Shown one piece after another: positions 2,737 to 55,659 of a stretch of DNA of 60,018 nucleotides. The notes beneath the pieces are model-generated. The model had not been told where the DNA came from and searched no databases. It saw only the letters and a list, made by a program, of their open reading frames with translations. This stretch comes from a virus, in the IMG/VR virus record IMGVR_UViG_3300007513_000043, positions 1-60,018 of that record; one strand, 5' to 3'. A program made the translations under genes and the position numbers. How positions within the stretch are numbered: the stretch's first letter is position 1; every line of letters starts with the position of its first letter.

Positions 2737-2766
2737 TTGACAATTACTACTAATGTTACGTATATT
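2737..2766 (+). promoter_or_regulatory. Sigma70-like promoter of the switch segment
   Basis: TTGACA (2737-2742) and TATATT (2761-2766) are separated by 18 bases, a near-consensus sigma70 promoter. It lies in a 63-base gap and reads toward the genes at 2790 and 3010. The -10 element sits inside the recurring 14-bp motif at 2755-2768, so a protein bound there would block this promoter. Confidence 0.6.
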
Positions 2767-2768
2767 AC
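2755..2768 (+). promoter_or_regulatory. Recurring GTTACGTA motif, site 1
   Basis: GTTACGTATATTAC, one of six intergenic copies with consensus K-TTACGTA-D-R-TTAC. It overlaps the -10 element of the promoter at 2737-2766 and is followed by ATATG, as also at sites 2 and 5. It reads in the direction of the downstream gene. Probably an operator. Confidence 0.6.
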
Positions 2769-2789
2769 ATATGATGTGTGGAGGTTAAT

Positions 2790-3023
2790 ATGATTATAAT
2801 GGTCAAAAAAGGGTTGTTAGGACAATACACAATCCCCTACGGAGTGTATTTCGAGAAAAATAGTGTTCTTACTATGAACGAAATACTCAACTGGGATTTG
2901 GTCGTTGAAAATATAACAAACCTTAAAATAAGAAATAAAGTAATAGCAGAAGGTGTTTTATTCGGAGACGAATACCCACCAGATACACCTATTACAGAGG
3001 GGAGACGGAATGAAGACTTGTGA
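2790..3023 (+). CDS. Hypothetical protein of the switch segment (77 aa)
   Basis: The ATG at 2790 is preceded by a perfect GGAGGT ribosome binding site; an in-frame GTG at 2778 is less likely. The 77-residue product opens with MIIMVKKGLLGQY, a beta-strand pattern with a hydrophobic start, but has no full membrane helix. It overlaps the next gene by 14 bases, whose ribosome binding site lies within this frame. It is the first gene behind the promoter carrying motif site 1. No family is recognised. Confidence 0.75.
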   Translation: MIIMVKKGLLGQYTIPYGVYFEKNSVLTMNEILNWDLVVENITNLKIRNKVIAEGVLFGDEYPPDTPITEGRRNEDL

Positions 3024-3213
3024 TATGAACGTGCGTGGTATAGATTCAAAACTATATAGAGAGTTTAAATCAAAGGTATACAGCAAGGGTTATAAAAACG
3101 TCAAGGAGTGTATGACACACCTTATGATGAAATTTGTTAATTCGAGCGAGAAGAAGAATGGTGTTGATTTCTTTGATTCAGACTTTAAGCCACACCAATC
3201 TCGCAACAATTAA
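3010..3213 (+). CDS. Ribbon-helix-helix transcriptional regulator (67 aa)
   Basis: The pattern of a beta strand (CDMNVRGID, residues 3-11), helix 1 (SKLYREFKSKVYSKG), and helix 2 (NVKECMTHLMMKFVN) is that of Arc/MetJ-type ribbon-helix-helix proteins, which bind DNA as dimers through the strand. The start is the ATG after GGGGAGACGGA. Its 3' end overlaps by 29 bases the tail of the oppositely oriented gene at 3185-3397, and copies of the recurring motif lie on both sides (2755 and 3401). It is therefore one of two good candidates for the protein that reads that motif. Confidence 0.75.
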   Translation: MKTCDMNVRGIDSKLYREFKSKVYSKGYKNVKECMTHLMMKFVNSSEKKNGVDFFDSDFKPHQSRNN

Positions 3214-3397
3214 TTAAATGAATATATTTCTCGGGGATACAATCAGAAATAAACTCAAGAGCAATGTTTGGCTCATCGCCTTCTAATAAGGTCTTATCTG
3301 AATTTGCCTTGTCAATATATTCACACAAACCAGTGCATTCTCCAGTTGCATCGTTATACCATATTTTAAGAGTGTAAACTTTTTTACCTTTCTTCAT
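3185..3397 (-). CDS. Hypothetical protein, oppositely oriented within the early block (70 aa)
   Basis: A 70-residue acidic protein is read leftward inside an otherwise rightward block. It has a beta-hairpin-like N-terminus and five Cys. The only possible start in frame is the ATG at 3397; upstream in frame there is no ATG, GTG or TTG for at least 12 codons. No Shine-Dalgarno sequence precedes it: the bases where one should lie are occupied by motif site 2 (3401-3414). It may have a leaderless message. Divergent from the Cro-like gene at 3480, it gives the segment a lysogeny-switch-like layout, but the protein does not look like a repressor. Confidence 0.6.
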   Translation of the reverse strand: MKKGKKVYTLKIWYNDATGECTGLCEYIDKANSDKTLLEGDEPNIALEFISDCIPEKYIHLINCCEIGVA

Positions 3398-3400
3398 ATG

Positions 3401-3414
3401 GTAATCTACGTAAC
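3401..3414 (-). promoter_or_regulatory. Recurring GTTACGTA motif, site 2
   Basis: On the minus strand GTTACGTAGATTAC, ending three bases before the ATG of the leftward gene at 3397. A TTGCAT hexamer precedes it by three bases plus TG, exactly as at site 5. It lies in the 82-base divergent gap between that gene and the Cro-like gene at 3480. Confidence 0.6.
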
Positions 3415-3479
3415 AGAATGCAAAAATAAAATAAATAGTTTGTAAATTAATATTTACAGATTAAATTAGAGGTATGGCA

Positions 3480-3680
3480 ATGGATTACATAAAGCAACAT
3501 ATAGATGATAATGGGATAAAGCACACTTGGGTAGCAGATAAGTTACACATAAGCAAGTCCTACCTATCTCTGATACTTTCGGGGACTCGGACGGCACCGA
3601 GTTGGTTCGAAAAAGAGGTTGTAAAGTTACTTAAAATAAACAAAGGGGAAATAAATGAGTTCAGAAAATCCGACCTATGA
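3480..3680 (+). CDS. Cro/CI-type helix-turn-helix regulator (66 aa)
   Basis: Residues 5-55 form a classic five-helix XRE fold: IKHTWVADKLHISKSYLSLILSGTR contains helix 2, the turn and the recognition helix. At 66 residues it is a Cro-sized single-domain protein. Two in-frame ATGs exist (3474 and 3480). The TAGAGGT ribosome binding site directly abuts the first and is properly spaced from the second, so 3480 is preferred. The 3' end overlaps the annealing-protein gene by 26 bases. Likely target: operators in the 3398-3473 gap, possibly the recurring motif. Confidence 0.85.
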   Translation: MDYIKQHIDDNGIKHTWVADKLHISKSYLSLILSGTRTAPSWFEKEVVKLLKINKGEINEFRKSDL

Positions 3681-4374: not shown

Positions 4375-4547
4375 TGGGAAGAATATATTCAGAAGAAGAA
4401 AGAAAAGACATTGCAAGATATACTAAAAGGTTAAGGTGGAATCCTCACACAGAAAAGCAGTACTGGGAAATAGTAAAAGATAAGAAAGAGGTAGTAGGAA
4501 CTGCACCTTTCTCAATGTTCAAAGATTATAATAAAGGAGATGAATAA
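4374..4547 (+). CDS. Small basic protein between annealing protein and SSB (57 aa)
   Basis: A 57-residue ORF exactly bridges two recombination genes, with TAATG overlaps at both ends and AAGGAGAATAA in front. The N-terminal half is a basic helix (SEEERKDIARYTKRLRW); the rest is polar with two Trp. No family is recognised. Its position suggests a replication or recombination accessory role. Confidence 0.75.
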   Translation: MGRIYSEEERKDIARYTKRLRWNPHTEKQYWEIVKDKKEVVGTAPFSMFKDYNKGDE

Positions 4548-5986: not shown

Positions 5987-5989
5987 ATA

Positions 5990-10299: not shown

Positions 10300-13200
10300 T
10301 TACCAGTTTATGTTTCTTCTTTTTCGTCCCTTATTAAATCCACCTTGATGTTGTTCTGGGTTTACCCTATTTTGAGTACCCCTTTTTTCTTTCATTTTTT
10401 GTTCTCTAATCCTCTTGTTTCTAACCGCTCTGCTATCCTTTGATTTTTGGTAATCTTCAGCTTGTTCTTTCGTATGACCCGGACCTCCCATTATTTTCCT
10501 AACAAACTGCCACCAAGTCCTTTTTTCATCTGTGTCTAGCGCATAATAATCATCCCAACCAGCTTGAGTCATAAGATTTCTAATAACATTAATTTCATCG
10601 TGGTCTTTTCCAAGAAATCCCTCTGCTATATTTATAGCATAATCAAGTCCAACCATTTGTTTCCTACTTAAAGACGAAACTGTCCTTCCAGCATTCCTTA
10701 TTACTCTAATATAACCCTTGTCTCTCTCCTCTAATGTAATATCTCCGCGTTGTGCCTCCCCAGTAAGGGCGAATATATCAGTAAGTATATTACTCGCGTC
10801 TCCAGCTAAATCTATAACTTGACCCAATAAACCACCATAACTAACCGTTAAGTTGCTAACCCTATATCCCCAGCCATATTTTTTCCTATATCCAAACATA
10901 CGATTAAGAGTCTCTTCAATGAGCATCATAGCGGTTAAGCGCACTGCAACTCCCCTTAAGCCAGCAGTAAATTTATTCCAATCCCCAGAACTTTCGTCAT
11001 ATTTATGCCTTCCTCCTAAGTTTGTGGTAATAGGTAGACCGTGGTATAGGGTTTGAAAATCTTGCACAAATTGCCCTAAAAATCGCAGTGGGTAATTTTG
11101 GGCAAACATAGGTAAACGTCCTATTGGGCTATGTTCAAGTAGAGACCTTTCCATTCTTTGATATCTAAATTGTGATTTTTCCGCAGCAACATAATCGGCG
11201 ATTTGCAACGCAACATATTTCATATTTCCAGCATCTATTTCGTGTAACAATCTGTTTTGCATACTTAAATCAAGACCGTCAAAGGATATTCTGCCCCTTA
11301 TATCTGGAAAAGAAACCTCTCCAGCCTTATATGACTTTAACATAGGCAACACTCTATTGTAAGTTTCATTAAAATCTACCCACCTACTTGATAAATCGAC
11401 CAACCCATAAATTCCCTTAAACTTGTCTAGTGCTTCTTTGGCTCCGGGAATACTGTCTATCCAACCAGACGCACCAACTCTTAAATACTCGTCCATAAGA
11501 GCTGATTGACTGCTCGTATTAGACATAAAGAATTGCTGAACATCTTTATCTGCGTTAAGAAAAGTAGAGCTTTTCCTAATGTTTAAAGCTCCTCTCCCAA
11601 ATGACTCTTTTATTATATTTTGAAGAGCAGAGGGCATATCTTGTATATTCACAGAGGTTAAACCCATAAGTACTTGCATTTTATTTCTTCCCCATTTTGT
11701 AGGGTTAGATAGAGTTGCAGCCATAAGCTTTCCAACAAACTTGCTTACTCCAGATTCAAATAAATCTGATGGATTAACTGTTAAGTCATTGTGCATTACA
11801 TTATATAAATCTTCTCTCATAGCCTCTGGGATTAAGCGATGATTAACCATTTTCATAAAATCGTAAACAATATCATCTATAAATAAAATGTTACTATCAG
11901 AATTTAATTTTCTTGTAAGATTCGATAAGGCATTGCCACCCCTTTCTCGCACGGCATCTCTGTCTTGTGCTTGTAATATTCCTTTGCTTAGACCCATATG
12001 GGAATTGGAATTCATTTCTTGTTTTTTTATGTCTGCGAGTTGAGGGGTGTAATTTTCCTTTATAAATCCTTCAACACTTGTGATTGCGTTTATAAGTCCC
12101 TTAAAATCTCCACTATCATAATACTCATCTAGCATCTCTAAATCTGCTTTTTCTACTCCGGGAATGTGAGTAGCATCGCTATTTCTGTATTGCTGGTATC
12201 TGTTAATTGCAATATCTCTTTGGTAGATTGGATTTTCATATATTTCACTCAAAGCATTGTTAATCTTGTGTGCATCTTCACTTAAATCACTATATTCCAA
12301 TTCGCCATTTCTATAGTTTTGTATTTGTTGCCCCACAGCCTCGTGAACATCTCTTATGTCGTTAAAGCCTAACTCTCTTAAAACCTTATTCATAGGTTCC
12401 ATTAATTCTTCTCTATATAAGTCTCTTCTGCCCTTTGCATCTCTATAGTCAATCCAAGTCTGATAAACTGGGAGAACTGGAACCATTCTCTCATATTTAT
12501 CAAAAGCTCCCGAAGTTCTATTTATTAAATATCCCCATCTTGAAACCTTTTGCCTTAACGAAGGATTCATACCTTTCAATGGCAAGTGCTTTGGTGCTAT
12601 CTTAACATTTTTATCTAATATTTTTTGTAAATCTGGGTCTTTTACCTTATTTCTTCTAAAGTCACGAATTTTCCTTTGTTGACCAACTGTTATATGCTCT
12701 TTTAATGTCTTCTTGTCTGCTCTTCTGAAATCAAGACCTCTTTTCATTCTTTTTGCAATAACCTTATCATTTAACATATCAAAAGCTCTTTGTCTAGTCT
12801 GGAAAGACGATAAAGCCATTTGATAGTATAGCATCATAGTCTCTGCTAGTGGATTGCCTTTTTGAGCTTCAGCAAATAATTGCTTTAGATTAGTAATTTG
12901 CTTTTTAGATGCGTCCACCATAGGAACTTGTTTAAAGAAAAACTTTTGAATATCTTTTAAGTCTTGATGAGTAGCTCTAGCTTCGTGCTGAACATATTTT
13001 CCGCCACCAGCGTGTATTTTCTCTCCAAGTAAATACCTTTCTGCTATTTTTATTCTAGCAAGAGCCTTTCTATTATCAACCCTTCTTTGTTCTGGCTTAC
13101 TCCTAAGCCCTTTCATATGTTCACTAAAAGAAATTTTATTCCCCTTTGAATCTACCATCTCTATACTCAACCCTAGTTTAGGATTTTTAATATAATCGAT

Positions 13201-16200
13201 AACAGCATCTTCTGTTTTTCTATATATAGGATTCTTTCTTAAGCTTTCTCTATTCTTATTAAACCAGTTTTTCATTTGCGCCCAAACTCTTTTAAACCAA
13301 TCTTTGGTTTTTTTGCCAAAGCTTTTTGGGTCACTCTCAAATTTCTTATATTGTTCTTTAAAGTTTTTAGCTGTTATACCAATCTTTTCACCAGCCGATT
13401 TAACATATTTTGGAAGGTCATTATATACAAAATGCCCAGCATCCACAAGACCCCTTCTTAGTAATCGCATATTTTGTGGTGTAAAACCTAACATACCAGC
13501 CTCAATACTATTAAAGTCTGACGCGAGGTCTTTATTCTTAAGACCTCCCGCCGACTTATCTTTTAGGCTCTTCTCTGAGGCTAATTTTAATGGTCCTTTA
13601 CCACTTTCTAGAATAGCTTGCTTTTCATTTTTATTTAGGTCTTCGAATTTTTTTCTTTGAATAGCTTTAACGCTGCTTTTACCAGAGATTCCGGGCTGTT
13701 TTCTTCCCAAAATTCCTTCGATTCTCTTATCATTGAATCCTCGTTCTTTTGCAAGTTTGATGAATTCTTGTTTGTAGTCTGTTTCATTTATACTCTCTCC
13801 TTTTATTCCATATTTACCATATAATCTTTTTTGTGGGAACCATATTTTAGCTTGTGCATCTGCTACTGTAGGCTCTCCACTTAACTTAACAACCCTCTCC
13901 ATTATACTTCTATATCTATTTCTCTCTCCACCACCTCCCGGAGCTTCTTTAGGAGCGTTAATATGTTCATTTAAGTTTTTAGCTCTTTTATTTAAAATTG
14001 TATCCTTTTTAAAACCACCCCTTTCATAAACCCTATGAACTTCTTTTGCTATATCTATCATAGCGGCATCATCTTTTAAAACATCTCTAGTAATTCCATA
14101 TTTTTCTCTAGCAGACTTATTACTTCTTATTGCATTCTTAAAGTTTTTTAATTGTTTTGTGTAGTCTCTTCCGAAATCCTTTCCTTTCCCAGCTTCGGGC
14201 AATAAATCACCGGTAATTCTTCTCATATTTCTAATGAAATGTAAGTCCATCGTCAATGGTTTCCCGTTGCCTTGGATATTTTGGAAGAAGGCACCACCTA
14301 CTTTTGGTCCAAATATAGAGCTACCCATAACCTTTGTATCTAATGTTTCACCACTTATAGCCTTAATACCAGCATCTCTTAATTGTCTTACTGTAAATTC
14401 TGTATTTAAAAATCTGTGTAGTCTTTCCTCACCCCAAATTTCTGAAAGTTTATTATAAGTTTTAAAAGACTTTCTCATTGCTGGCATCTCCTTACCAGCT
14501 CCCATAGCTTGTTTTTCAGCTTTACTTAAGTTCTTTCCAAAGTTCTCATCGAATTTGCCATTTTTTAAATAATACTCATATTGTTGCATAGCTATTTTAC
14601 TATTAGAGGGAACTCCTTGACCATTACTTGTTATAGCAAGAACTGCATTGAAAGCAGTCTCTTTTGTAGGGTTATTTTTCATTTGTGGATAAATTTCTCT
14701 AGCTATTTTTAATGCACTTTGCATTTTTTCGCTATACCAACCATCTGCATTCCACTCTCTTTGATTCTCTCTTGCTATCTCACTTGCTATTACTTGCGCT
14801 ACAATTTCATTAGACTCTGGAGTATCTTGTCTTAAGTCTATTCCAAGCTCTTTTTGTATTTTTAAAGATTTTTGAGTAAGATATTTTGATAAGTCGGAAA
14901 CATTCTTAAACTGAGGGACTGGCTCTTTTGCATCAAAAACATCTTTTGAGGACAACTTATCAGCAATAATTTTCTTCTGCTTTGCGGGGATTGCTCCAGC
15001 TTTTTTAATAACCGGCTTAGCAAGACTTTGCATCGCTTTAATCTTTTGGGCTGGTGTTAAAGGCTTTCCTTTTGCATCTACTTCTTCTATTGAGGCACCT
15101 ATCTTAGGGTTTTTAAGATATTCCTTGATATATCCTTTAGCTTTTCCATAGAAATTTTTGAGATTGTTCCACACTTTATTAAAGAACTTTCCAGCGCTAG
15201 ATTTAGTTTCTCCAGACCAGTTGCTAAAGCGTTCTTTAAAATTATTAGCATTAACGCCAATTTTTCCACCAAGTTTTTGCAAATGTTTCGGCAAATCATT
15301 ATAAACATATCTTCCTCCTCCTATTAATACATCGGCTGCATTTTTTATATTTTGTGGTGTAATAGGACCAGAGCCAACCTCAAATCCTTTTCCAACTGCT
15401 TTCACAGCTAAATCTGTTTCGAAATCTCTTAATTGTTCCTTAGTTAATTCATCTACGCTATCAACTCCGTATTTATCGTTTAAATCTTGTTCTAGATTTT
15501 TACTTAACTTCCAATCTTTTCCATATTCTCTTTCTATAACAGCTTCATCTATTCTTTGTGATAAAGTTTTAGGAGCTTCCTTTTTAGAAACTTTCGTTTC
15601 TTCAGCTAAACCTTTAGCCATAATTCTTTCATTTTCTTTTTTAGCTATAAATTTGGCTTCAGAAAATGCTCTGTCTTTAGCATTCAAATATAAATCTTTT
15701 TCTTTTTTAGTTAAAGGTCTTACTTTACTAAAACCAACTTCCTTGCCACCTACCATCGCTACATATCCTTGTCTCTTCTCATCCCAAGTAGAACTTGTTG
15801 GTTGGTCATATTTTTGTTCTATTTCTCTTTTTTTATCTTCCAGTTCTGATAATTTATCAATTAACTTTTGAGCTTTAGGAGTTAGGTCTCCTAAGAATTC
15901 GTCTCTAATTTCATCAGTTGACATACTCTCAATAGATTCTTTTACATCTGCAATCTGTTTATCTATCGTAGATAATTCAGTAGGAGCTTTCTTTTTAACT
16001 TTCGTCTTTGGAACTGCTACAACACCAGAGGGTTGAACTTTCGGTGCTGGTTTTGGAGTTTCTTTTGGAGCTAAATCAAAATTCCCTTTGTCGTCTATTT
16101 TTGTTCCGGCAGGTAATTCAATAGTTTTGCCTCCAGAAATAATTTGTCTTGTTTTGTCTCTTAACTCTATACCAGCTTTTTCACTTTTAACTGGAATATT

Positions 16201-19200
16201 ATCAATATTCTCTCCACGTGGTCCTAATAACTTAACATTATGGTAATTATTTGAAGCAGATGGTGGCTCATATTTAACATTAAATACTTTCATTATACTC
16301 TTAGGTCTGAAACCCATACCAAATAAAAGACCATCAGCCATTGTAATTGAAAAATCTCCATTTAAAACCTCAGTCCAAAAATTTACATCTTTCCCAGCCT
16401 TAAGCATAGCATCAGCAAGTGCCCTATCGCTTCCTTGTATTTTATCATATTTATCTGGGTGAATTTTCTTAAGTATATCTTTTATGATTTCTCTTTCTTT
16501 TTTATTCCATTTAATCTTATATTTATCTTTTTTGAAGGCAAAATCTTCTATATTTTTAAAACCATTGGTTACCATACCAATTCCTTTTAAACCAGCTATG
16601 GTTGCTAACGCGTGGGCATATTCTCCATTACTAGGCATATTTAAACCCTTCCATTCCCCAGTTCTTATTAGTTCACCAAGACTGGCATCAGACATTACAA
16701 ATCCTAAAGTTTCAGTACCAAGCCCAGATGCAGATGCTCCAACTCCTTCAAATAGTTTATATCCCGCACTACTCATATTCATTCCAGTTTTTTGACCTAA
16801 GTATGCAACAGCAGTGCCAAACAATCTACTACCAAAGGCACCAGCCGCTGGTAGTAATGAGCCTACTGCTGCTCCAGAACCATAAGCTTTTAATGCTTCT
16901 CCAAATTTAACATTATACACTCCGTCTTCAGCCATTTGATTCGCCAAACTATGAACACCAAAAAAAACACCTAATTGATTAGCCGATATTGCAACTTTAG
17001 TACCTTGTTTAGATAATGTTTTGCTTAATTCTATAGCGGCAGCTTTAGTTGCTTTATTTATACCGCCTTGTATTCCCTTTCCAGCAATAGATGATGCTGA
17101 AGTATAAGGTACTCTACCACCGGTCATTCTCGATATAAACGCTGCTGCGCTTTCTTTTGTCTTAACAAGCCATTCCGCTGTTTTAACAACAAGTGGTCTA
17201 GGTAAGATTTTACCAGCATCAATAGCCTTACTTAAATTAAAGCCTTTCTTTGATAAATCTAGACCTTTAGGAACCTTACTTACAGCTCTAGTTATACCGT
17301 TATTCATCAATCCAAGTGGACCTCTTAAAGCATACATATCAGCAACTATTCCTAATGTTGCCCCAATACCTCTATGCCAATCAGTAACTCCTTCCCCGGG
17401 ATTAACATCCCATATACTCATAGCTCCAGCTGACCTATCCCATTCCCCAGTTTTTTCATTGTATTTACCAGTCAGACTATTTTGATGGTCGTAAAATGCC
17501 CATTTAACTTGATTATTTGAATGATTATGATTGTTGGTAAATATACTTGAAAGCATTTTTCCAATACCAAACTGCTCTTGACTCCAGTATCCAGCATCAA
17601 GATGACCTATTACTTCTGGAATAGCATCAACCCACGATATTCCACTTTTATTCCTATCTATTGTCTCCCCTTTTGAATTAATATTATCCATTCTCATACT
17701 AGAACGAGGAATATTATAACCATCTCTTTCAAGCAAAGACCTTGCCTCTAAAGTGGAAATTTCTCCATTAGCCCTTTTCTGATTTAAAGCCTTTATAAAT
17801 TCCATATTAAATTCATCGTGATAAGATTGAAGTCTTAATTTTCCTCTTTTCCTTTCAACGTCATCACCGGGGTCAAAAAGATTACCTATACCATTAACCG
17901 TTCTTTCAATAAACGATGTCTCCATTGCCTCATCAATAGCAAGACTTGTTTCTAGCATCTTATCTGGCGAATCAACATTTACTTTAGGGTATGCACTTAA
18001 TAAATTTTCATTATAAGCTATAAGCTCTTCTACTGATGAAGTATCTTTTGGAGACATAGGACCACTAGTAGGAATGAATCTATCTGTACCGGGAACTTGA
18101 ACTAAACTTGAGGCAGAACTTATTCTAAATCTATCATCTGTATTTGTTATCCAAGGGTCTGGCTCAAAGCCCTCTTTATTAGTTAAATTTATACCATATT
18201 TATGAGAATTAATAGCTCCGGGTAGCCAGCTATACTTATTCCTTAAAGAATAGTCTGAATCATACATAGAATGTATATCAAAAGATTGGAGCTTTTTTTC
18301 TATTTCTTCATCATTGAAACCGCCAAAGTTTTTCAATTGCGCTTTATAGTCTTCCCTAGCTTCTCCGCTTATAATTTGTTCTGGACTATATACTCTTTCA
18401 ATTCCAGTCGTATAAATATCATCCCTTCCTCCAGTTCTTCTTGCATCTCTTGATATTTCATCATCCTTGGCAAAACTTAGATATCCAGCCCCAGTACCAA
18501 CTGACTCCCCATAATCACTTTCGACAAAACCAGCTTCAGATAATTTCTTTCTATTAACAACAGCCCATTGGTCTGATGTATAATTATTTACTGGGTTAAC
18601 TAAAACACCATTTTCATCTCTCTTAGCATCAATTCTTGCTTCCATTTCCGTAATTTTATGGTTTGGCAACTTTTTAAGCCACGCATCATTATGAATGATA
18701 TTAGTAGAACCATCGGGCATAGTCATCTCTACATAGTCTGGTGTTTCATAATCTTTATTCCATAAGTTCGTAAATGTAGATATATTGCCTTGACCTGCCT
18801 CTGCGCTAACTTGCTCCCAACTTAGCGTGTTTCTAAAATCATCACTATCCATATCCCCTACTTGATTGACATACCATTTAAGTTCTTGAGTCTCTGGGTC
18901 ATATCCAAAATCTCTAACAGTATCAAATTCATCAAAGTATTTTGGGTCTTTTATTTCTGGATTCCAATCACCTATACTTTCATTATATACTTTCTGAACA
19001 TCTTCGAATGGGAGGGTTCCATTTAATATACCATTTCTTGTAGTCTCTTCTAAATGGTCAGCTCTTGCACTATTAACATACTCTTTAAATAGCTTTACAT
19101 TCTTTTCATCTCTAGCTTTAGTGAATTGTTGGCTTAAGGGTTGCTTATCTTCTTGTTCGAATCGATTTATTTCGTCTTGAATAGCCCTATCCGACTCGGC

Positions 19201-19347
19201 TTTTTGACGCATCTTTTCCGCTCTTGCCTTATTTAGAACTTTTTGAGCAATACTCGTTTCTTCTAGCTTAGCTTCTTGTTCTCTTCTTTGCTTTTCTTTT
19301 TGATGCTCGAGTTTTGCTGCTTCTTGATACTCTTGTAGTAAACTCAT
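10300..19347 (-). CDS. Giant polyvalent ejection protein (3,015 aa)
   Basis: This one protein takes 15% of the genome. Residues 1-90 are a charged coiled coil. Residues about 590-920 hold several Gly/Ala-rich hydrophobic stretches. About 945-1000 reads like a J-domain core (LKKIHPDKYDKIQGSDRALADAM). Two copies of a roughly 110-residue module occur at about 1326-1440 and 1953-2078 (TPQN...VYNDLPK...GxxxNFKE...YIKNPKxGxSIE). Residues 1540-1850 contain an AVLAITSNGQ segment seen in phage polyvalent proteins. The C-terminal third (RFLGQFVQDFQ onward) resembles the LPD38-type domain. Such proteins are carried in the capsid and injected with the DNA. No RNA polymerase motif was found. Confidence 0.8.
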   Translation of the reverse strand: MSLLQEYQEAAKLEHQKEKQRREQEAKLEETSIAQKVLNKARAEKMRQKAESDRAIQDEINRFEQEDKQPLSQQFTKARDEKNVKLFKEYVNSARADHLEETTRNGILNGTLPFEDVQKVYNESIGDWNPEIKDPKYFDEFDTVRDFGYDPETQELKWYVNQVGDMDSDDFRNTLSWEQVSAEAGQGNISTFTNLWNKDYETPDYVEMTMPDGSTNIIHNDAWLKKLPNHKITEMEARIDAKRDENGVLVNPVNNYTSDQWAVVNRKKLSEAGFVESDYGESVGTGAGYLSFAKDDEISRDARRTGGRDDIYTTGIERVYSPEQIISGEAREDYKAQLKNFGGFNDEEIEKKLQSFDIHSMYDSDYSLRNKYSWLPGAINSHKYGINLTNKEGFEPDPWITNTDDRFRISSASSLVQVPGTDRFIPTSGPMSPKDTSSVEELIAYNENLLSAYPKVNVDSPDKMLETSLAIDEAMETSFIERTVNGIGNLFDPGDDVERKRGKLRLQSYHDEFNMEFIKALNQKRANGEISTLEARSLLERDGYNIPRSSMRMDNINSKGETIDRNKSGISWVDAIPEVIGHLDAGYWSQEQFGIGKMLSSIFTNNHNHSNNQVKWAFYDHQNSLTGKYNEKTGEWDRSAGAMSIWDVNPGEGVTDWHRGIGATLGIVADMYALRGPLGLMNNGITRAVSKVPKGLDLSKKGFNLSKAIDAGKILPRPLVVKTAEWLVKTKESAAAFISRMTGGRVPYTSASSIAGKGIQGGINKATKAAAIELSKTLSKQGTKVAISANQLGVFFGVHSLANQMAEDGVYNVKFGEALKAYGSGAAVGSLLPAAGAFGSRLFGTAVAYLGQKTGMNMSSAGYKLFEGVGASASGLGTETLGFVMSDASLGELIRTGEWKGLNMPSNGEYAHALATIAGLKGIGMVTNGFKNIEDFAFKKDKYKIKWNKKEREIIKDILKKIHPDKYDKIQGSDRALADAMLKAGKDVNFWTEVLNGDFSITMADGLLFGMGFRPKSIMKVFNVKYEPPSASNNYHNVKLLGPRGENIDNIPVKSEKAGIELRDKTRQIISGGKTIELPAGTKIDDKGNFDLAPKETPKPAPKVQPSGVVAVPKTKVKKKAPTELSTIDKQIADVKESIESMSTDEIRDEFLGDLTPKAQKLIDKLSELEDKKREIEQKYDQPTSSTWDEKRQGYVAMVGGKEVGFSKVRPLTKKEKDLYLNAKDRAFSEAKFIAKKENERIMAKGLAEETKVSKKEAPKTLSQRIDEAVIEREYGKDWKLSKNLEQDLNDKYGVDSVDELTKEQLRDFETDLAVKAVGKGFEVGSGPITPQNIKNAADVLIGGGRYVYNDLPKHLQKLGGKIGVNANNFKERFSNWSGETKSSAGKFFNKVWNNLKNFYGKAKGYIKEYLKNPKIGASIEEVDAKGKPLTPAQKIKAMQSLAKPVIKKAGAIPAKQKKIIADKLSSKDVFDAKEPVPQFKNVSDLSKYLTQKSLKIQKELGIDLRQDTPESNEIVAQVIASEIARENQREWNADGWYSEKMQSALKIAREIYPQMKNNPTKETAFNAVLAITSNGQGVPSNSKIAMQQYEYYLKNGKFDENFGKNLSKAEKQAMGAGKEMPAMRKSFKTYNKLSEIWGEERLHRFLNTEFTVRQLRDAGIKAISGETLDTKVMGSSIFGPKVGGAFFQNIQGNGKPLTMDLHFIRNMRRITGDLLPEAGKGKDFGRDYTKQLKNFKNAIRSNKSAREKYGITRDVLKDDAAMIDIAKEVHRVYERGGFKKDTILNKRAKNLNEHINAPKEAPGGGGERNRYRSIMERVVKLSGEPTVADAQAKIWFPQKRLYGKYGIKGESINETDYKQEFIKLAKERGFNDKRIEGILGRKQPGISGKSSVKAIQRKKFEDLNKNEKQAILESGKGPLKLASEKSLKDKSAGGLKNKDLASDFNSIEAGMLGFTPQNMRLLRRGLVDAGHFVYNDLPKYVKSAGEKIGITAKNFKEQYKKFESDPKSFGKKTKDWFKRVWAQMKNWFNKNRESLRKNPIYRKTEDAVIDYIKNPKLGLSIEMVDSKGNKISFSEHMKGLRSKPEQRRVDNRKALARIKIAERYLLGEKIHAGGGKYVQHEARATHQDLKDIQKFFFKQVPMVDASKKQITNLKQLFAEAQKGNPLAETMMLYYQMALSSFQTRQRAFDMLNDKVIAKRMKRGLDFRRADKKTLKEHITVGQQRKIRDFRRNKVKDPDLQKILDKNVKIAPKHLPLKGMNPSLRQKVSRWGYLINRTSGAFDKYERMVPVLPVYQTWIDYRDAKGRRDLYREELMEPMNKVLRELGFNDIRDVHEAVGQQIQNYRNGELEYSDLSEDAHKINNALSEIYENPIYQRDIAINRYQQYRNSDATHIPGVEKADLEMLDEYYDSGDFKGLINAITSVEGFIKENYTPQLADIKKQEMNSNSHMGLSKGILQAQDRDAVRERGGNALSNLTRKLNSDSNILFIDDIVYDFMKMVNHRLIPEAMREDLYNVMHNDLTVNPSDLFESGVSKFVGKLMAATLSNPTKWGRNKMQVLMGLTSVNIQDMPSALQNIIKESFGRGALNIRKSSTFLNADKDVQQFFMSNTSSQSALMDEYLRVGASGWIDSIPGAKEALDKFKGIYGLVDLSSRWVDFNETYNRVLPMLKSYKAGEVSFPDIRGRISFDGLDLSMQNRLLHEIDAGNMKYVALQIADYVAAEKSQFRYQRMERSLLEHSPIGRLPMFAQNYPLRFLGQFVQDFQTLYHGLPITTNLGGRHKYDESSGDWNKFTAGLRGVAVRLTAMMLIEETLNRMFGYRKKYGWGYRVSNLTVSYGGLLGQVIDLAGDASNILTDIFALTGEAQRGDITLEERDKGYIRVIRNAGRTVSSLSRKQMVGLDYAINIAEGFLGKDHDEINVIRNLMTQAGWDDYYALDTDEKRTWWQFVRKIMGGPGHTKEQAEDYQKSKDSRAVRNKRIREQKMKEKRGTQNRVNPEQHQGGFNKGRKRRNINW

Positions 19348-24550: not shown

Positions 24551-24589
24551 TTTTAATCTCCATTTTTATTTGTTTGATATGTAACATAA

Positions 24590-24603
24590 TTTACGTATAT
24601 TAC
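24590..24603 (+). promoter_or_regulatory. Recurring GTTACGTA motif, site 3
   Basis: TTTACGTATATTAC in the 75-base gap ahead of the ejection cassette (next leftward start 24550). It is read opposite to the genes. A nearby GTAACAT (24581-24587) adds a half-site. An AAAAAGCTTTTT palindrome at about 24613-24624 lies between the motif and the stop of the preceding gene and could be a weak terminator. Confidence 0.5.
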
Positions 24604-30800: not shown

Positions 30801-33800
30801 TTCTAACTCTGTTGCAGTTGACGGCGATGGTCCTAAAATATTAACCGATGTTCCATCAGTTCCTTGGACACCACTCCATTGAGCAAATTCTGTTGGCTGA
30901 GTAATAGTTGTTGCTCCAGCACTATCTTGATTATATGTTGCAATTGCTGCATATATATTGTGGTCAACAACTAAGGTCGGTATTGTTAAACTCCAACCAG
31001 TAGGCGCAGCTGGAGATGCATAACTAGCAGAAAAATCATTTGGAACATCTTCACCGCTAGCTGCTGCTGATGTCATAAGTTTATATGCATAAACTAATTT
31101 AGGTCCGGGTAATCCATCTCCACCATCTTGCGTTAAAATACTTGGTGCTTCCCAAGTTAAAGATGTATCTGGAACAGTAATATCTGTTGTTGATGCTGGT
31201 GATGTTGTTACATAACAAGGGTTTCCATCTGCCGCTGGAATCGTAGTTGACCAATTCCCAATATTACTAATAGTATTGGTGCTAAAATTAAATTCTGAAG
31301 TATTCAAATCTGTTGTTACTGGTGCTGCGCTTCCTCTTTGATATAAAAATAACAATGCAATACTTGTTCCGGGGTCTCCATCACCTCCAACACCACCAGT
31401 AGCTCCTTGTGCTCCTTGCTCGGCATATTGAGTATTTACATTACAATCATTTCCAACACTAAGATTTCCACTACCAGCAATAAAATCAACACTATCAAAT
31501 GTCAATCTACCGTCATATTGAGAGTTATAATTCGGATTGGCATCTAGAATTTCAAATCTTACAAAAGTATTACTACCTTCTTTGCTTATTTGAAATACTT
31601 GTCCTTCCGGCATTGACTCAAGATAATTCCTTATATCAACACCATTTTTATCTTTAATATTTATAAGAAAACTAGCATTGTCACCGGGCGAATTATTAGC
31701 TAAGTTAGAAACATCCCAACTTGTATTTCCTTGACCAAATGTAAATTCACCACCATCTAAATTTGTCAAACCACTCTCTGTATAATCAAATGGAAAATTA
31801 ATACCAATAGCATCAGTGCCATCTGCCCCATCTGATGCGCTAAATTCAATAGGGGCAGTACCAGTACCTCCAGTGCTACCTACTTCATATAAAAATTGAG
31901 AAACCCAGATAATGTCGCCAGCACTTGTAGATACATTACCTAAATCATCATTCCAGCCGCCAGCACTACTAACATCAGGACTTGAGTAAGACCCAACAAA
32001 CGAAGGTGTGCTTGGCTGTGTTTCTGGTGGACTACCATTGTATGCATAATAAATAAATGGACCAGAATCACCAGTCCCACCAGTTCCTCCATCTGCTCCA
32101 GTAGCTCCAGTATATCCAGATAATTGAGAAGGGTATGTCCAATCTTCATCTATTGAAAAATTCCCAGCGCCTTCTGTCTGCTTCCAAGTAGATGTACTAA
32201 AAAATGTAAAATCACCAGCGGCTGGTGTTGCTGGTGTTAAACTCCAACCATTAGGAGCTGGGTTCATATCGCCATTTGAATCTACATTTACTGCTGCGTT
32301 ACTTGGTGTGCCGTTGGTAGCACCCACAGTAGCTGCATTTTTATATACTGTGAAAGATTTATATATATCAGCTGATGTACCAGTGCCCCCAGTATCTCCT
32401 TGTGCTGCTAATAAATCCCAATAAGTTGTTTGTGTCTCCGGGTTTTTATTTGTATTTGCTGGGGAATCTTTTATTGATACATATGAATTACTATTGTAAA
32501 ATACCGCATCATTAATTGAATATGTAGTTGCGGGATTCCAAGTTCCAAGCCAATCAACTGGAGAATTACCAGAAGACATAATTAAATCACCTCTTAATGT
32601 AACTGTGCCCTCAGAACCATCATAATGCAAATAAGAACCATTGCCAACTTCTGTTCCAACCAAGAAATCGAAATTGCCACCTCCATCTGAACCCATTCTT
32701 ATACCAACACCAGAGCCGGTTAATGTATCAAAGTCCGTGAATGTTCCGATATTTATAATTTGATTTTGTGCCTCTATGGATATATTGCTATTAGATATTT
32801 CATTAGATGATATTGCCCAACCATTTGTTGAATCACCTATATATCCTTCTTCTGCGTGTATTTTTCCTTTTAAATAAACATCTTCTGCCCACAAACCATA
32901 TGTATTAGCGGGTATACTTACACCAGCATAACTAATACCTTCAAGATTTCCGAGTCTTGCTTTTAACTTATTATTACTAGTCCAGTCTCCGATTGTATCA
33001 ACATCATTCCAAATATCTAAGAATGGAGCGCCACTATCTACTGAAGATAAATATAATCCCCCTCGTCTTGCAGCATCCCCAGTACTACCAATTCTTACAG
33101 CAGTTCTATTAACTAAGCTAAATGACCAAGTTCCAGTTATATCTGTTCCAGTGTTATCATAAACAGTTGCTTTAAATTGATTCGCATCTGCTACATCATC
33201 GTCTGTTACTATTAAATAATATTTATTATCTGTTCCATCGAAATCTTTCCATTCAAGAAGTAATATATCATCATCAGAAAATGGATGTGCATCTGTTGCA
33301 TCATCTGATGTTATTGTAAATATTCCAAAATTATTATTTCCATCTTGAGCTTGTACTGCTATTTTTGCTGCATCTGATACTATTAAACTACCATTAGTTG
33401 CTCTTATTTGATTTATAAGTAATTCGTGAACATTCATTGCCCCACGTACCATTAAATCTTCAATCTCTAATCTATATTTATCGCTACCTAAGTTAGTAAC
33501 TTCCCATCCAGACCCACCAGTAAAACCAGATGTAAATGTAACACTTCCAAGTGGAAGGTTGTCTAAAGTTTGAGCCCCAGCAACAGAACCAAATGTAATC
33601 TTTCCAGCAGAATTATAAAAGAATGCAGTTGTACCTCCACCGCTAGTACTTTTTAATTCAACCGTAGGAACACTTGCTTCAATTGACAGTTTACCATTTC
33701 CGGCATTTGTACCTATCCCTACTGCATTAAACTCTACATTATCACTTGTGCTTAAATTTTGCCCAGTATTATATTCAAGATGCGCATCTTTGATTGAATT

Positions 33801-50390: not shown

Positions 50391-50404
50391 GTTACGTAAG
50401 TTAC
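50391..50404 (+). promoter_or_regulatory. Recurring GTTACGTA motif, site 4
   Basis: GTTACGTAAGTTAC, identical to site 6. It overlaps the stop codon of the portal gene (50401-50403) and lies about 20 bases upstream of the scaffold start (50370). It is read opposite to the genes. Confidence 0.55.
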
Positions 50405-52683
50405 GACTGTTCATTTTTAGATGCAACATCTTTTTCATTATTATTTGCACCATTTTGAACCATATTTCCTAATTTTTTCTCATAATCCTTCTTAACTAGA
50501 TTCATTTCTCTATTATGCAAGTCTTGATTTGCCTTGTTTACTGCTGCATCTCCCTTGATTTTAGCTCCAGTATCAACGATTTTCTTACGCATATCGTGTT
50601 CAGCTTGTCTCACTTTGTCTTTAATACCAGCTTGTATTAATTGACGTTCAAGAGTTTCGATAGTTCCCTCCTTGTCTTGCATTTGTTTTTGTAATTGTTC
50701 TATTTGCCCTTGTTGTTGTGCGTATAAACTTTTTCTTTCAGCTATTTTTTCTTTATTCTTCACATCAGTTTCTGCTAAAACAGCCATATCATCAACAACT
50801 CCTAATTGCATTAATTCTTTCAATTCTCCTAGATATGCCCATCTATTAACTGGTAATGTATGACCAGACACAACTCTTATGTCAAATTTTGCTGCTGCAT
50901 AATCTTTAAACTTACCAATAGCTTCCCCTAAATCATTATACATAGGAACATTTATAGATACTTCTCTATCTTCAGCTATAGCACTGGGTTGAACAATTCT
51001 AAATGTTTTTTCAGCTTTATAAACAAATTGGGCATAATCTCTTACCAGTAAGCCTAATTGTTTTAATGATGCCTTGACAGAACCATCCATCCAAGCCTTA
51101 ACTCTCCTAGTTCCATATTCGTCATTAGCAAGTAATCCTTTATATGTATCTGGTTGATTTCCAGTATCTCCTTGCTGAGATGAATACATTCCAGCTAGAT
51201 ACTCCATATCGCCTTTTCCTTCTTCTACGATACTTGCAAAAGCAGTTGACAGTGGAGCGGGTTGTACCTCTTTTGGAATCTCATAACCATTATTAATAGG
51301 TAGCAATGCTCCGGGTGCAGCTGAATACTTCTCCCAATAATCCGTATCAATACTTCCATCTACGTATACCCACCTTAGAGAAGAACCCAATGATGCATTA
51401 TGTATCATAAGCTGATGAGCTTTATTAAGCTCTTTTTGCTTTCCAATTAAGGGAGCAACAGCTGACATAGGATAAGGTGTTCCAGTATAATTGTAGTGCA
51501 CTGGTATTATAGGATAATCAGTTCCCGGTAATATAGATTCAACTAATAGTTGGTCACCCACCACCACTGACAATCTAACTTTAGTTTCATAAAATTTGAT
51601 AGCCTCAATTAAATTATTCTTCAATTCACCTTCCATAAGAGCATCGAACTCTTTTTCAGTGATTGATACATTCTCTATTTTGCTAACTTCTTCCATAGCC
51701 ACTTGTAATCGAGCTGATTTCTCTTGTTCAATCTTTGCCTCAATTTCTCCTCTTGCTTTCTCAAGTTCCCAATCGCCTCTTTCTGGTAACATTTGACCAG
51801 ATTCAACAGCTTGTGCTATAGCTTGTTCTTGCTCTTTAACTCCTACTTGAGCCTCTTTAACCATTCCATACATTTCTTGTTCTATACGTTTGTTTATTTC
51901 ATTAACTTGTTTTTCTGAAGGTTCTATCCTATAATAGACATTCATATAAGGAACTTTAATTTTTTCATACATCTCGTAATAATCAACTAATAAATCATCT
52001 TCTCCTAGAATAGTAAAATTTTCTGATATATCTTTGTATTGGAAATCATTCATATCTGCTTTTTGACTCCAACTTTTATGATTAGGATATTGCGAATGCG
52101 CTTTTTTAATCTTAGACTTAAACTCTGGATATAATTGTTCTAAATATGCTCTTGGACATACTTTATGCAACATCATAAAAGCAGCATCCCTTAATAAAGA
52201 ATCTCTAGATTGCGGGTCTACATAAACATCAAAAGGTTCTAAATTTCTTATTTTAACCTCTCCCATACCCCTATCTTCATTTGGGTCTACATAAACTTGG
52301 AAATAACCAATAGATTTAGTACAAGCATCTTTTATTACTTGATTAAATAATTGTTTACCATTACTTATATACCATATATAATCAGCAACATCACCGTGTA
52401 CTGCTGCTACATCTGCATCAGAACCTTCAGCTCCTACCGCTTGCCATCTAGGGTCGTTAAATGTAGCATAGAAAGTCAACATCTCTACTATTGGAATAAT
52501 CCTATTAATAGTAAAGGTAGGCATTCCTTGTTCCTCTAATCCTTTTTTCTCTTTAGCTGATAATTGATTATCTAAAAAGAAATCGTGACCTTCTTGATTA
52601 ACTTGTTCCCAAGCTTGTCTGTTCTGCCCATTAAGTTTCAGAAACAATTCGTGAATCTGCTGTGCTTTATCTGTTTTTTTCAT
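50401..52683 (-). CDS. Portal protein, P22-like long form (760 aa)
   Basis: The N-terminal 250 residues match long podovirus portals: ...GMPTFTINRIIPIVEMLTFYATFNDPRWQAVGAEG, DYIWYISNGKQLFNQVIKDACTKSIGYFQVYVDP, and VKIRNLEPFDVYVDPQSRD. Residues about 255-360 are an acidic coiled coil insertion. The last 120 are a Gln/Lys-rich helix barrel (LYAQQQGQIEQLQKQMQDKEGTIETL then a basic tail). Twelve copies form the DNA channel. The start overlaps the previous stop by four bases (ATGA). Confidence 0.9.
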   Translation of the reverse strand: MKKTDKAQQIHELFLKLNGQNRQAWEQVNQEGHDFFLDNQLSAKEKKGLEEQGMPTFTINRIIPIVEMLTFYATFNDPRWQAVGAEGSDADVAAVHGDVADYIWYISNGKQLFNQVIKDACTKSIGYFQVYVDPNEDRGMGEVKIRNLEPFDVYVDPQSRDSLLRDAAFMMLHKVCPRAYLEQLYPEFKSKIKKAHSQYPNHKSWSQKADMNDFQYKDISENFTILGEDDLLVDYYEMYEKIKVPYMNVYYRIEPSEKQVNEINKRIEQEMYGMVKEAQVGVKEQEQAIAQAVESGQMLPERGDWELEKARGEIEAKIEQEKSARLQVAMEEVSKIENVSITEKEFDALMEGELKNNLIEAIKFYETKVRLSVVVGDQLLVESILPGTDYPIIPVHYNYTGTPYPMSAVAPLIGKQKELNKAHQLMIHNASLGSSLRWVYVDGSIDTDYWEKYSAAPGALLPINNGYEIPKEVQPAPLSTAFASIVEEGKGDMEYLAGMYSSQQGDTGNQPDTYKGLLANDEYGTRRVKAWMDGSVKASLKQLGLLVRDYAQFVYKAEKTFRIVQPSAIAEDREVSINVPMYNDLGEAIGKFKDYAAAKFDIRVVSGHTLPVNRWAYLGELKELMQLGVVDDMAVLAETDVKNKEKIAERKSLYAQQQGQIEQLQKQMQDKEGTIETLERQLIQAGIKDKVRQAEHDMRKKIVDTGAKIKGDAAVNKANQDLHNREMNLVKKDYEKKLGNMVQNGANNNEKDVASKNEQS

Positions 52684-53264
52684 AATCTCTCTATCTCTTT
52701 ATCCCATATATCAATTGCTATGGAATATCTCGTACCTTTTTTAATGTTTGTTACCCTATGTAAATAAGATGAATCAAAAATAACCAACCTATTATATTTA
52801 GGTTTTATCCTTTCGTACTCCCTTTCAAACTTTAGAAAAGAACCATCTTTATATATATTTTTTTCTTGCACAGAACTTATCTCAAGATATCCACCCTCAA
52901 CATAACTATCTATAGGATAGTAGGTTATTGAACACATAGGATGTAAGAATTCATCTGTCCTATGTTTGTGAACTTCATCTTTATTTGTGTGCCATTCTAA
53001 ATCAGAGCCGGGTTTATGTTTATGTGTCCAATATTCAATGGTTTTAATCTTATCACTAATATCTTTAATTGGACTATTTAATATTATATAAGATATTAAC
53101 TCTTCTTGAATATTTTTTGAAGGACTTTTCCAATCCCACGAATTAATAGTCGATAACTCATCTTCGATTGAATCGCCACCATAATCATATGTATTTTTAA
53201 AGAATTCATTTTTATCTTTTACTAAATGATTTTCATTCAGTATAAAATTATCTATAATTAACAT
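52680..53264 (-). CDS. 2OG-Fe(II) oxygenase-like protein (late)
   Basis: A 194-residue protein with the oxygenase order: EWHTNKDE with His92, then GGYLEI at 124-129, a distal His169 (SSYLHRV) and Arg179 (KGTRYSIAI). The residue expected to be Asp/Glu two after the first His is Asn94, so metal binding may rely on Asp96 or be altered. Between terminase and portal genes, with motif site 5 in front. It may modify virion or host proteins. Sequence differs strongly from the early oxygenase at 7375. Confidence 0.75.
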   Translation of the reverse strand: MLIIDNFILNENHLVKDKNEFFKNTYDYGGDSIEDELSTINSWDWKSPSKNIQEELISYIILNSPIKDISDKIKTIEYWTHKHKPGSDLEWHTNKDEVHKHRTDEFLHPMCSITYYPIDSYVEGGYLEISSVQEKNIYKDGSFLKFEREYERIKPKYNRLVIFDSSYLHRVTNIKKGTRYSIAIDIWDKEIERL

Positions 53265-53294
53265 TTCAATAAGCTTGTGATTAACATCACATAT

Positions 53295-53308
53295 GTAATT
53301 TACGTAAC
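53295..53308 (-). promoter_or_regulatory. Recurring GTTACGTA motif, site 5
   Basis: On the minus strand GTTACGTAAATTAC, two bases after the terminase stop codon and about 30 upstream of the oxygenase start at 53264. TTGCAT (minus strand, 53312-53317) precedes and TATGTG follows at an 18-base distance, a -35/-10 pair with the motif as spacer. Confidence 0.6.
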
Positions 53309-53309
53309 A

Positions 53310-54896
53310 TTATGCAACTATCCAAGACTTTGGTTTAGGTTTTCTTTTTCTATATATACCTTTAGACCCTTCAATCCCAGTTGGTGTAGTTATATACTTA
53401 CACGCGTACGCGAGCGCGTCTATAGTATCATCGTGTCCCATCCTTGGTCCAAAAGTTAATATTTCGTGCTGTAAATCGTACATCTGCTTTCTTATATGAA
53501 CACTACCTATAATAATTCTTTGTGCTAGAACCTCTTGTATTCTATCTCTTTTAGATAATCTGGTCCCGGGTTTTTCCTCTTTAAATTGTACTCCAAACTC
53601 ATTTCTTCTCCTCATCTCTGATATTAAAGACTGGAATACTGGTCTAGACATCGTAGTATCTTCTATGCAAAACAATTTCGGTTGATACATACTGTGATAG
53701 TCAAATATATAATCTACGATACCTTTTTTATTTTCTCCCGGAATACCTAATACCGCTAAACCACGTTTGCGCATATAATCTAATACATATATATTATTAT
53801 CCATATCGACAGCTATTATTACTATCACACTAAAGTCAGCATCTCGCCTATCGCTATCTGTAGCTGGGTCAACACCGCAATATATATTGACTGGCTTATG
53901 CTCCCCCTCAATATTTAAAAAACCTATTCCCTTATCTTTATCTAGTTTAAAGGTCCCATCGTGGTATTTTATATGACGTATAGTAAATATAGCGTCTTCC
54001 GCAGATTGTACCTCCATATGGTATTCTTGCCAGTATTTAGCTGGTTGCCCAGAATCAGCATAGAACTTCTTCTTCTCTTCTAGCTTTTTAATTCCAAACC
54101 AACTATCCCATAATGCTGTACCACCATCTTGTATAGCTTTGTATAGTACTACTTTCCAGCTAAAATCCGTTTTTTCACTTTCCGCCCTAGATGCGTTAAT
54201 GATGAGGTTATTGATAAAAGAATCGTAATGAACTGGAGTACCATTAATACGGAGACGACCGTCATAAGGCTCCAAAGCTGGATGAACAACAGCAGTAACC
54301 ATATTGGAATTTTTTTGCCGTGCTTCCGGAGTAATGGTATTATTTTCGTCCTCAAAGTCATCCAACACAATAAGGTCGTATCTTTTATGCAATTTAGCAC
54401 CACCTCTAATACCCGAGATGTTTGATTTCGAAATGAGCTTACATCCATTTTTCAACTCTATATCTGTTTCTGTCCATTTTAGTCCTTTCTGATTCCCAAA
54501 GTAATATAGGAACCTATCATTAAATTCTAAGTGATACTTAACGTAATCCATATTTCCAGTTGAAAGTTTCTGTGTGGCTGAGACCCAGCCGTAGAATAGT
54601 GGTCCATCTGCAAAACAAAACTTATGTAATACATCGCACTTAGTAAGGACTGTCTTCCCGTGACCTCTCGGCATAATGATAGCAAGATTTCTATGTTTCC
54701 AGATTCCAGATTTATCCTTCTCTGCCATAATATCTGCTATCTCGTAATGAAAAAAGGGGGTTTCACTACGCATAAAGTCATCGGGAAGAAACAGTTTTCC
54801 AAATGCTATTAAATCATTTTTCGCTAATAATAAGGCTTCTTCCGCTTTGCTTACATCTTGTGTATTGTAATTCAGCTTGTACTTTTGTTTTGCCAT
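53310..54896 (-). CDS. terL: Terminase large subunit (528 aa)
   Basis: Walker A PRGHGKT at 76-82, Walker B LIVLDDFED at 175-183, the SGIRGG loop at 161-166, and a C-terminal RNase H-like nuclease with YCGVDPATDSDRRDADFSVIVI, IEDTT and GHDDTIDALAYA. It drives DNA packaging and cuts concatemers; its fold and size are standard. The gene follows the small subunit after 47 bases and precedes the oxygenase. Near its 3' end it carries a TACGCGAGCGCG block also found at 47298. Confidence 0.95.
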   Translation of the reverse strand: MAKQKYKLNYNTQDVSKAEEALLLAKNDLIAFGKLFLPDDFMRSETPFFHYEIADIMAEKDKSGIWKHRNLAIIMPRGHGKTVLTKCDVLHKFCFADGPLFYGWVSATQKLSTGNMDYVKYHLEFNDRFLYYFGNQKGLKWTETDIELKNGCKLISKSNISGIRGGAKLHKRYDLIVLDDFEDENNTITPEARQKNSNMVTAVVHPALEPYDGRLRINGTPVHYDSFINNLIINASRAESEKTDFSWKVVLYKAIQDGGTALWDSWFGIKKLEEKKKFYADSGQPAKYWQEYHMEVQSAEDAIFTIRHIKYHDGTFKLDKDKGIGFLNIEGEHKPVNIYCGVDPATDSDRRDADFSVIVIIAVDMDNNIYVLDYMRKRGLAVLGIPGENKKGIVDYIFDYHSMYQPKLFCIEDTTMSRPVFQSLISEMRRRNEFGVQFKEEKPGTRLSKRDRIQEVLAQRIIIGSVHIRKQMYDLQHEILTFGPRMGHDDTIDALAYACKYITTPTGIEGSKGIYRKRKPKPKSWIVA

Positions 54897-54943
54897 AGTA
54901 TCCTATTAGTTTTGAAAATTTTGGTATAGGCGTTGTGTTAGTA

Positions 54944-55642
54944 CTATTTTTCTTGTACATCACCAGCCTCTATCTGTTTGCGCTCTGCTGATTCCAAGTG
55001 CTTAACATCAAATCCTTGAAAGACTCCAGCAATCTCGGTTATCTTCTGCTGCTTAATAACCCCAAACGCATCCCATAGCATATTTAATGCCTTTAACCTA
55101 TCTGAGTCGTTCTTTCCACCATCTACGACATCTTTGGCTGCGCCTATTAAATAATCTAGGTCTACACCTCTATTCTTAAATACATCATCTAATTTCTCAT
55201 TCATAATCTTTTGCACCCTTTCACTCTTTATAAGCAATGCTGCCTTTTCTTTGGCATTCTTTTCACTTGTTGTATTAAATACCTCTGCATATGTAAGTAC
55301 CGCATCCCCACCATTCCGTACGCGCTTTGCAAAAACAACCTCTCTCCTTGTAGCTTTAGTACGGTTCTTAAGCCGGGTATACCAGTTCTGTCCACTCATT
55401 GTATAAATGTCCTTTTTACGAACTGAGTCCATTCGCGTATCATCTGTATACGAATAGGTCCCGGTACACGTACCAACACTAAAGTTATCTTTGCGGAGTA
55501 TCTGTACAACGTGTTCATCATCCGTAGCCACCCAATCTCCAATTTCCGCATTCTTCCAGTCTTTCCTATATTCTATGTGCCGAGGTACCTCCGCGAGTTC
55601 GTATACAACGTGAAACTTATTCTTTACTTTATGCTTCTTCAT
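54944..55642 (-). CDS. terS: Terminase small subunit (232 aa)
   Basis: Residues about 105-200 have the Terminase_2-like pattern: AYAEVFNT..SEKNAKEKAALLIKSERVQKIMNEKLDDVFKNRGVDLDYLIGAAKDVVDGG...RLKALNMLWDAFGV, split as HTH-like N-part and oligomer helix. Residues 1-100 form an extra beta-rich N-terminal domain (GDWVATDDEHVVQILRKD) uncommon in small terminases, possibly for DNA recognition. First gene of the late block, with motif site 6 three bases upstream of its ATG. Packaging recognition sequence probably lies in the adjacent gap. Confidence 0.75.
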   Translation of the reverse strand: MKKHKVKNKFHVVYELAEVPRHIEYRKDWKNAEIGDWVATDDEHVVQILRKDNFSVGTCTGTYSYTDDTRMDSVRKKDIYTMSGQNWYTRLKNRTKATRREVVFAKRVRNGGDAVLTYAEVFNTTSEKNAKEKAALLIKSERVQKIMNEKLDDVFKNRGVDLDYLIGAAKDVVDGGKNDSDRLKALNMLWDAFGVIKQQKITEIAGVFQGFDVKHLESAERKQIEAGDVQEK

Positions 55643-55645
55643 AAG

Positions 55646-55659
55646 GTTACGTAAGTTAC
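55646..55659 (+). promoter_or_regulatory. Recurring GTTACGTA motif, site 6
   Basis: GTTACGTAAGTTAC, identical to site 4, located three bases upstream of the terminase small subunit ATG (55642). On the minus strand an AT-rich TATATT (55668-55673) lies just upstream with a weak TTTAAA 16 bases further, so the motif would fall at or just past the transcription start: a typical operator position. Confidence 0.55.

Follow-up and report, generated by a model that had tools for sequence, protein, structure and literature searches.

Which protein reads a short motif that recurs between the genes of a marine phage known only from its DNA, and what would it control there? For uncultivated marine phages, knowledge of regulation hardly ever goes further than gene lists. 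We analysed the whole virus record IMGVR_UViG_3300007513_000043 (60,018 nt; hereafter the window, W), in which a first-pass annotation had described six copies of a 14-bp motif as a phage-wide set of operators. From comparative genomics alone we obtained two types of operator, each with a probable regulator and with counterparts at matching sites in relatives. As judged from sequence, the sites are probably operators of a phage-encoded regulator, most likely a 67-aa ribbon-helix-helix (RHH)-like protein, with a Cro-like protein acting on a separate element.

The repeated motif and its paired boxes

The pattern KTTACGTADRTTAC has six exact matches in W, exactly those listed by the first-pass annotation and on the strands assigned to them (Table 1), with 0.00 expected in dinucleotide shuffles. 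With a position weight matrix built from the six, the sites scored 17.7-20.7 bits and the next-best place in the 60 kb reached 13.2; this genome-wide scan found no equal-scoring copies inside genes. Near matches with three mismatches (36 across W, 19 expected) are mostly chance. The intergenic placement was borne out as well: five of the six sites are non-coding in a genome with a non-coding share of about 4% (by a mechanical gene call; site 24590 was judged from the annotation), and the remaining one, at 50391-50404, overlaps the portal stop codon by 4 bases.

Relatives were IMG/VR contigs found via TerL, and 80 such loci were examined. L026 (90% TerL identity) is the only one with the exact 14-mer, located after the TerL stop, and it carries a one-base variant at the portal stop. 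A scan of IMG/VR with TGTTACGTAWATTACA returned 13 stretches, one being L026 again and the others single matches. The exact 14-mer is absent from less close relatives because the spacer changes while the boxes and their spacing stay: with the relaxed form GTWAC-N4-RTWAC, both boxes and the 9-bp spacing were found to be kept and the spacer altered. On this comparison, KTTACGTADRTTAC is best read as the local form of a broader operator, made of two quasi-palindromic GTWAC boxes with centres 9 bp apart and a free 4-bp spacer. The 14-mer first described is thus real, but its symmetric unit is the 5-bp box, the 14-mer being a special case of GTWAC-N4-GTWAC, and a seventh site (operator 7) had been missed.

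Without prior selection of sites, we tallied the spacings between GTWAC boxes in a clade set (W, G001, G002, G004, L015, L016, L018 and L026) and in seven control relatives. At 9 bp the clade set held 17 pairs, versus 0.45 in shuffles and a mean of 1.05 at other spacings, and the controls held a single pair. The non-coding DNA of the 80 TerL loci again peaked at 9 bp, with 10 pairs. Box orientation within pairs is free (5 inverted, 5 direct, 2 everted), as expected if a symmetric dimer binds each box, and the varying orientation of the sites fits the near-symmetric protein site originally proposed better than a promoter element. Outside W and L026, the spacer has a symmetrised information content of ~0.1 to 0.4, against high values in the boxes; only the spacer value is informative, the sites having been chosen by pattern. 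We put down to chance the box pairs that fall within genes in G013, G018 and other relatives, and a G001 copy at 8766 that resembles operator 3 is coding.

Conservation at matching places

In line with the operator proposal, the element is kept at matching places in relatives (L007 is G001, L009/L010 are G002/G003, and L011 is G004). In W and its closest relatives, the pairs sit nearly exclusively in gaps between genes, where early and late blocks of genes begin. Pairs lie at the portal stop in W, L026, G001 and G002/G003, with the spacers TTAC, TTAC, TTAA and TTTA, respectively. Seven lineages (W, L007, L009/L010, L011, L015, L016 and L018/L019) also carry pairs, often two of them, upstream of TerS (-425 to -749), the relatives concerned being among the closest to W by TerL (71-77%); no pair was found at these positions in the other relatives, about 45 from similar marine samples. 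Upstream of the RHH operon, pairs are present in W and G001 and a degenerate triple in G002, and W and G002 share a pair upstream of cro.

Two elements and two proteins

The first-pass annotation had named the RHH and Cro-like proteins as candidate regulators of the motif. Their cassette (RHH-like gene, minus-strand gene, Cro-like gene) is conserved in the three other relatives with the early module available, G001, G002 and G021, which speaks for this choice; the RHH-like protein fits the motif better, however, and the Cro-like protein has its own likely element. G006, G013 and G018 carry neither the cassette nor GTWAC pairs in intergenic DNA. The Cro or RHH protein alone as query in viral contigs returned few or no new relatives, and a search with the RHH-like protein in phage, plasmid and GTDB genome collections gave no match.

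The Cro-like protein is securely of the XRE/helix-turn-helix (HTH) type. It matches phrog_1468 at E 5e-8, its AlphaFold2 model (predicted local distance difference test, pLDDT, 88) has the five-helix fold, and Foldseek matches include SinR, C.Esp1396I and 434 Cro (prob 0.97-1.00, best E 0.02). The 67-aa protein is predicted to be RHH (MetJ/Arc)-like, an assignment that is weak by sequence. Its AlphaFold2 model has an extended N-terminus followed by helices 13-25 and 31-50, with core pLDDT >90, which gives the strand-helix-helix topology of RHH proteins, the strand being barely formed in the monomer model.

W also has three copies of a second palindrome, TGTAAAN6TTTACA, when up to one mismatch is allowed; each starts 17 to 40 bp from the start of a GTWAC operator (operators 2, 6 and 7). 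In four genomes, the two elements segregate with different regulators, which is the main reason for assigning the GTWAC pairs to the RHH-like protein and the second palindrome to the Cro-like protein. G021 has the Cro closest to that of W (49% identical) and a diverged RHH (34%); it has no GTWAC pair and keeps TGTAAAN6TTTACA at cro (exact) and at -52 of TerS (one mismatch). G002, with an RHH 49% identical, kept the GTWAC pairs; it has no TGTAAAN6TTTACA, and its Cro recognition helix reads YMSRMLS in place of YLSLILS. The GTWAC pairs, at their conserved places and spacing, thus co-segregate with the RHH gene. A variant triple in G021, GTACT-ATTT-GTATT-ATTT-GTATC at 3486 (~-760 of TerS), fits a shifted box; this single case was noticed by eye and was not counted as evidence.

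TGTAAA-N6-TTTACA is also the TyrR-box consensus, a box being defined by at least 10/12 matches (PMC4374768), and the palindromes in W have 12/12 at 3441 and 11/12 at 55663 and 56346. Host TyrR, the regulator of aromatic amino acid genes, is therefore a possible reader of this element. Because the element segregates together with the Cro recognition helix, we favour Cro over TyrR, and the Cro-like protein is the likely binder of the second palindrome.

Alternative readers of the GTWAC operators

Several points weigh against the RHH-like protein as the reader of the GTWAC boxes. It has no Pfam match, and its G002 homologue gave four NikR models over the RHH domain, weakly and below the cut-off (E 0.003-0.09). 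Foldseek with the monomer model matched no solved RHH protein, a search that is weak because RHH is a dimer fold. The segregation argument covers four genomes. Three boxes in 9-bp register lie in intergenic DNA in W, G001, G002 and G004, which counts in favour; the triple-box count, however, is not enriched over control genomes, and the intergenic location alone stands out. At operators 3, 4 and 5, the late strand shows no clear sigma-70 promoter. Finally, a 14-bp two-fold site also suits a 434-type Cro dimer. 434-type operators have a total length of 14 bp, the Cro-like fold is secure and operator 2 lies immediately upstream of cro, so that the XRE dimer might itself bind the GTWAC operators as a 434-like set, with the RHH-like protein doing something else. 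We consider this unlikely: the most W-like Cro occurs in a genome without GTWAC pairs and the altered recognition helix in one that kept them, the boxes take every orientation and can stand three in a row at 9 bp, and TGTAAAN6TTTACA tracks Cro better.

It is less probable still that the phage exploits sites of a host transcription factor. Host-like sites are indeed near, namely the TyrR-box consensus discussed above and a CRP-like TGTGATN4ATCACA beside operator 5 in W and L026, yet GTWAC pairs are limited to one phage clade, are absent from the other relatives from similar marine samples, and are found around the cassette of the phage's own regulators; among host motifs, none of such form was identified. 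A -10 element read by host sigma-70 or by an RNA polymerase that the phage has modified would account for operator 1, which lies over the -10 of TTGACA-18-TATATT with a similar arrangement in G001, and is very improbable for the set as a whole, as the sites point either way with respect to the gene that follows, no -10/-35 stands in the same register at the rest of them, and the spacers are free to vary between relatives while both boxes are kept. Several copies stand at gene junctions or just before start codons, and copy 55646 folds better than shuffles (z -3.1), as an RNA hairpin for mRNA processing or translation control might. Nevertheless, the six transcripts have no common fold (z from +1.6 to -3.1), and most W copies are GTTAC twice in the same direction, from which no perfect stem can form. 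With no shared fold, we rejected the hairpin, the least credible of these readings.

Proposed mechanism and comparison with known systems

If the RHH-like protein is the reader, one dimer would bind each GTWAC box and neighbouring dimers would cooperate. Bound RHH would shut the promoter of its own operon, where operator 1 covers the -10, and would act at the cro promoter and the early/late divergent promoters through operators 2, 6 and 7. Within the late operon, at the junctions that carry operators 3, 4 and 5, it could either block a promoter or act as a road-block to elongation, which are indistinguishable since no late-strand sigma-70 promoter is recognisable there. The Cro-like protein on TGTAAAN6TTTACA beside operators 2, 6 and 7 would complete a two-regulator switch. 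We infer RHH binding to the boxes, the sign of regulation (repression) and its timing; the sites may likewise coordinate early/late switching and tune late-gene dosage, as initially suggested. Among the proteins scanned, we saw neither a CI-like repressor nor an integrase.

RHH dimers occupy one repeat each and bind cooperatively to direct or inverted repeats, as the omega protein does when it binds two such repeats as a dimer of dimers (PMC9499535), and the half sites of AmrZ are parted by a 5-bp linker (PMC3325190). W resembles RHH repressors such as omega/ParB of pSM19035, RelB, CopG, AmrZ and Arc in its short repeated boxes, in tolerating direct and inverted order and, presumably, in placing one dimer on each box (PMC9499535). 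It also resembles them in a small repressor gene beside its own operator, which would be autoregulated, and in half sites with a short linker, as in AmrZ (PMC3325190). Unlike in known RHH repressors, the GTWAC box and 9-bp period are specific to the clade of W, the sites are spread along a phage genome, and no RHH family model recognises the W protein above threshold.

In Cluster A mycobacteriophages (L5, Bxb1), the stoperators of one regulator are distributed genome-wide in promoters and short operon gaps (PMC9283540, PMC6550527). W likewise has sites in promoters and short intergenic gaps. Stoperators, however, are asymmetric 13-mers that follow the direction of transcription and are each bound by a monomer, with more than 20 in a genome, whereas the W sites number seven, are quasi-symmetric and occur in both orientations. 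We take the W system to resemble a compact network of operators, some possibly stoperator-like, and not to belong to the stoperator family. As in lambdoid early control (cI/Cro), the early region of W is divergent, with a small HTH protein of the Cro type and palindromic operators in clusters; W differs in that its second regulator is RHH-like and its operators reach into the late operon. Operators inside a late structural operon, if true, would be unusual outside mycobacteriophage stoperators. The most far-reaching picture, which we offer only tentatively, is a regulatory network spanning the phage genome and run by an RHH repressor instead of a lambda-type one. This repressor would occupy two-box operators at early promoters and also, within the late structural operon, at the portal stop, the TerL stop and the ejection cassette, where it would serve as a symmetric road-block of the stoperator kind; it would work in concert with a Cro-like protein on a second operator type.

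Features of the window and neighbouring elements

Table 1 Operators, second palindromes and regulatory genes in W
Feature	Position	Strand	Context and counterparts
Operator 1, GTTAC-GTAT-ATTAC (GTTACGTATATTAC)	2755-2768	+	Ahead of RHH operon, over promoter -10; G001 counterpart GTTACATATATTAC
Sigma-70-like promoter TTGACA-18-TATATT	2737-2766	+	11/12 matches (consensus match alone); overlapped by operator 1
Operator 2, GTTAC-GTAG-ATTAC	3401-3414	-	Divergent gap between minus-strand gene and cro; G002 has GTAACAAATATAAC directly upstream of its own cro
Operator 3, triple box GTAAC-ATAA-TTTAC-GTAT-ATTAC	24581-24603	+	Ahead of ejection cassette; third box in register with site 24590
Operator 4, GTTAC-GTAA-GTTAC	50391-50404	+	Overlaps portal stop, ahead of scaffold-like gene; same place in L026, G001 and G002/G003, other spacers
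Operator 5, GTTAC-GTAA-ATTAC	53295-53308	-	At TerL stop; same in L026, which lacks the oxygenase
Operator 6, GTTAC-GTAA-GTTAC	55646-55659	+	4 bp upstream of TerS start; G002 has GTAACAGATGTAAT at -50 of TerS
Operator 7, GTTAC-ACTT-GTAAC (GTTACACTTGTAAC)	56308-56321		Intergenic, early side of early/late divergent region; found by generalised form
Second palindrome TGTAAATTAATATTTACA (TGTAAAN6TTTACA, 12/12)	3441-3458		Upstream of cro; exact form at same place in G001 and G021
Second palindrome TGAAAAATATAATTTACA, one mismatch (11/12)	55663-55680		Adjoins operator 6; G021 has same element at -52 of TerS
Second palindrome TGTAAACAAAAGTTTTCA, one mismatch (11/12)	56346-56363		Near operator 7
Small RHH-like gene, 67 aa	3010-3213	+	Homologues in G001, G002 and G021
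Conserved 70-aa gene between RHH and Cro genes	3185-3397	-	Homologues in G001, G021 and G002
Cro-like XRE/HTH gene, 68 aa	3474-3680	+	phrog_1468 match

Operator 5 had been described as preceding a late oxygenase. Its location is right, but it is not oxygenase-specific, since L026 has the same site directly before portal with no oxygenase gene between. The 2-oxoglutarate (2OG)-Fe(II) oxygenase-like gene of W (52680-53264, between TerL and portal) is absent from L026 and therefore looks like an insertion behind an older operator. A CRP-like palindrome, TGTGATTAACATCACA at 53276-53291, adjoins operator 5; L026 has TGTGATATAAATCACA there, with a different centre.

Upstream of TerS, a non-coding element at ~55685-55715 (CATTTTGTCCCAATTTTTAAAGATTG on the late strand) is similar in G001, G002, G004 and G021 and is a candidate packaging or origin element. 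Two giant genes, 10300-19347 (3015 aa) and 24861-34679 (3272 aa), have no Pfam match at E 0.001. The early genes at 57351-58346 and 58428-58964 match an anti-restriction protein and a peptide deformylase, and the ends of W, as read from the sequence, repeat each other.

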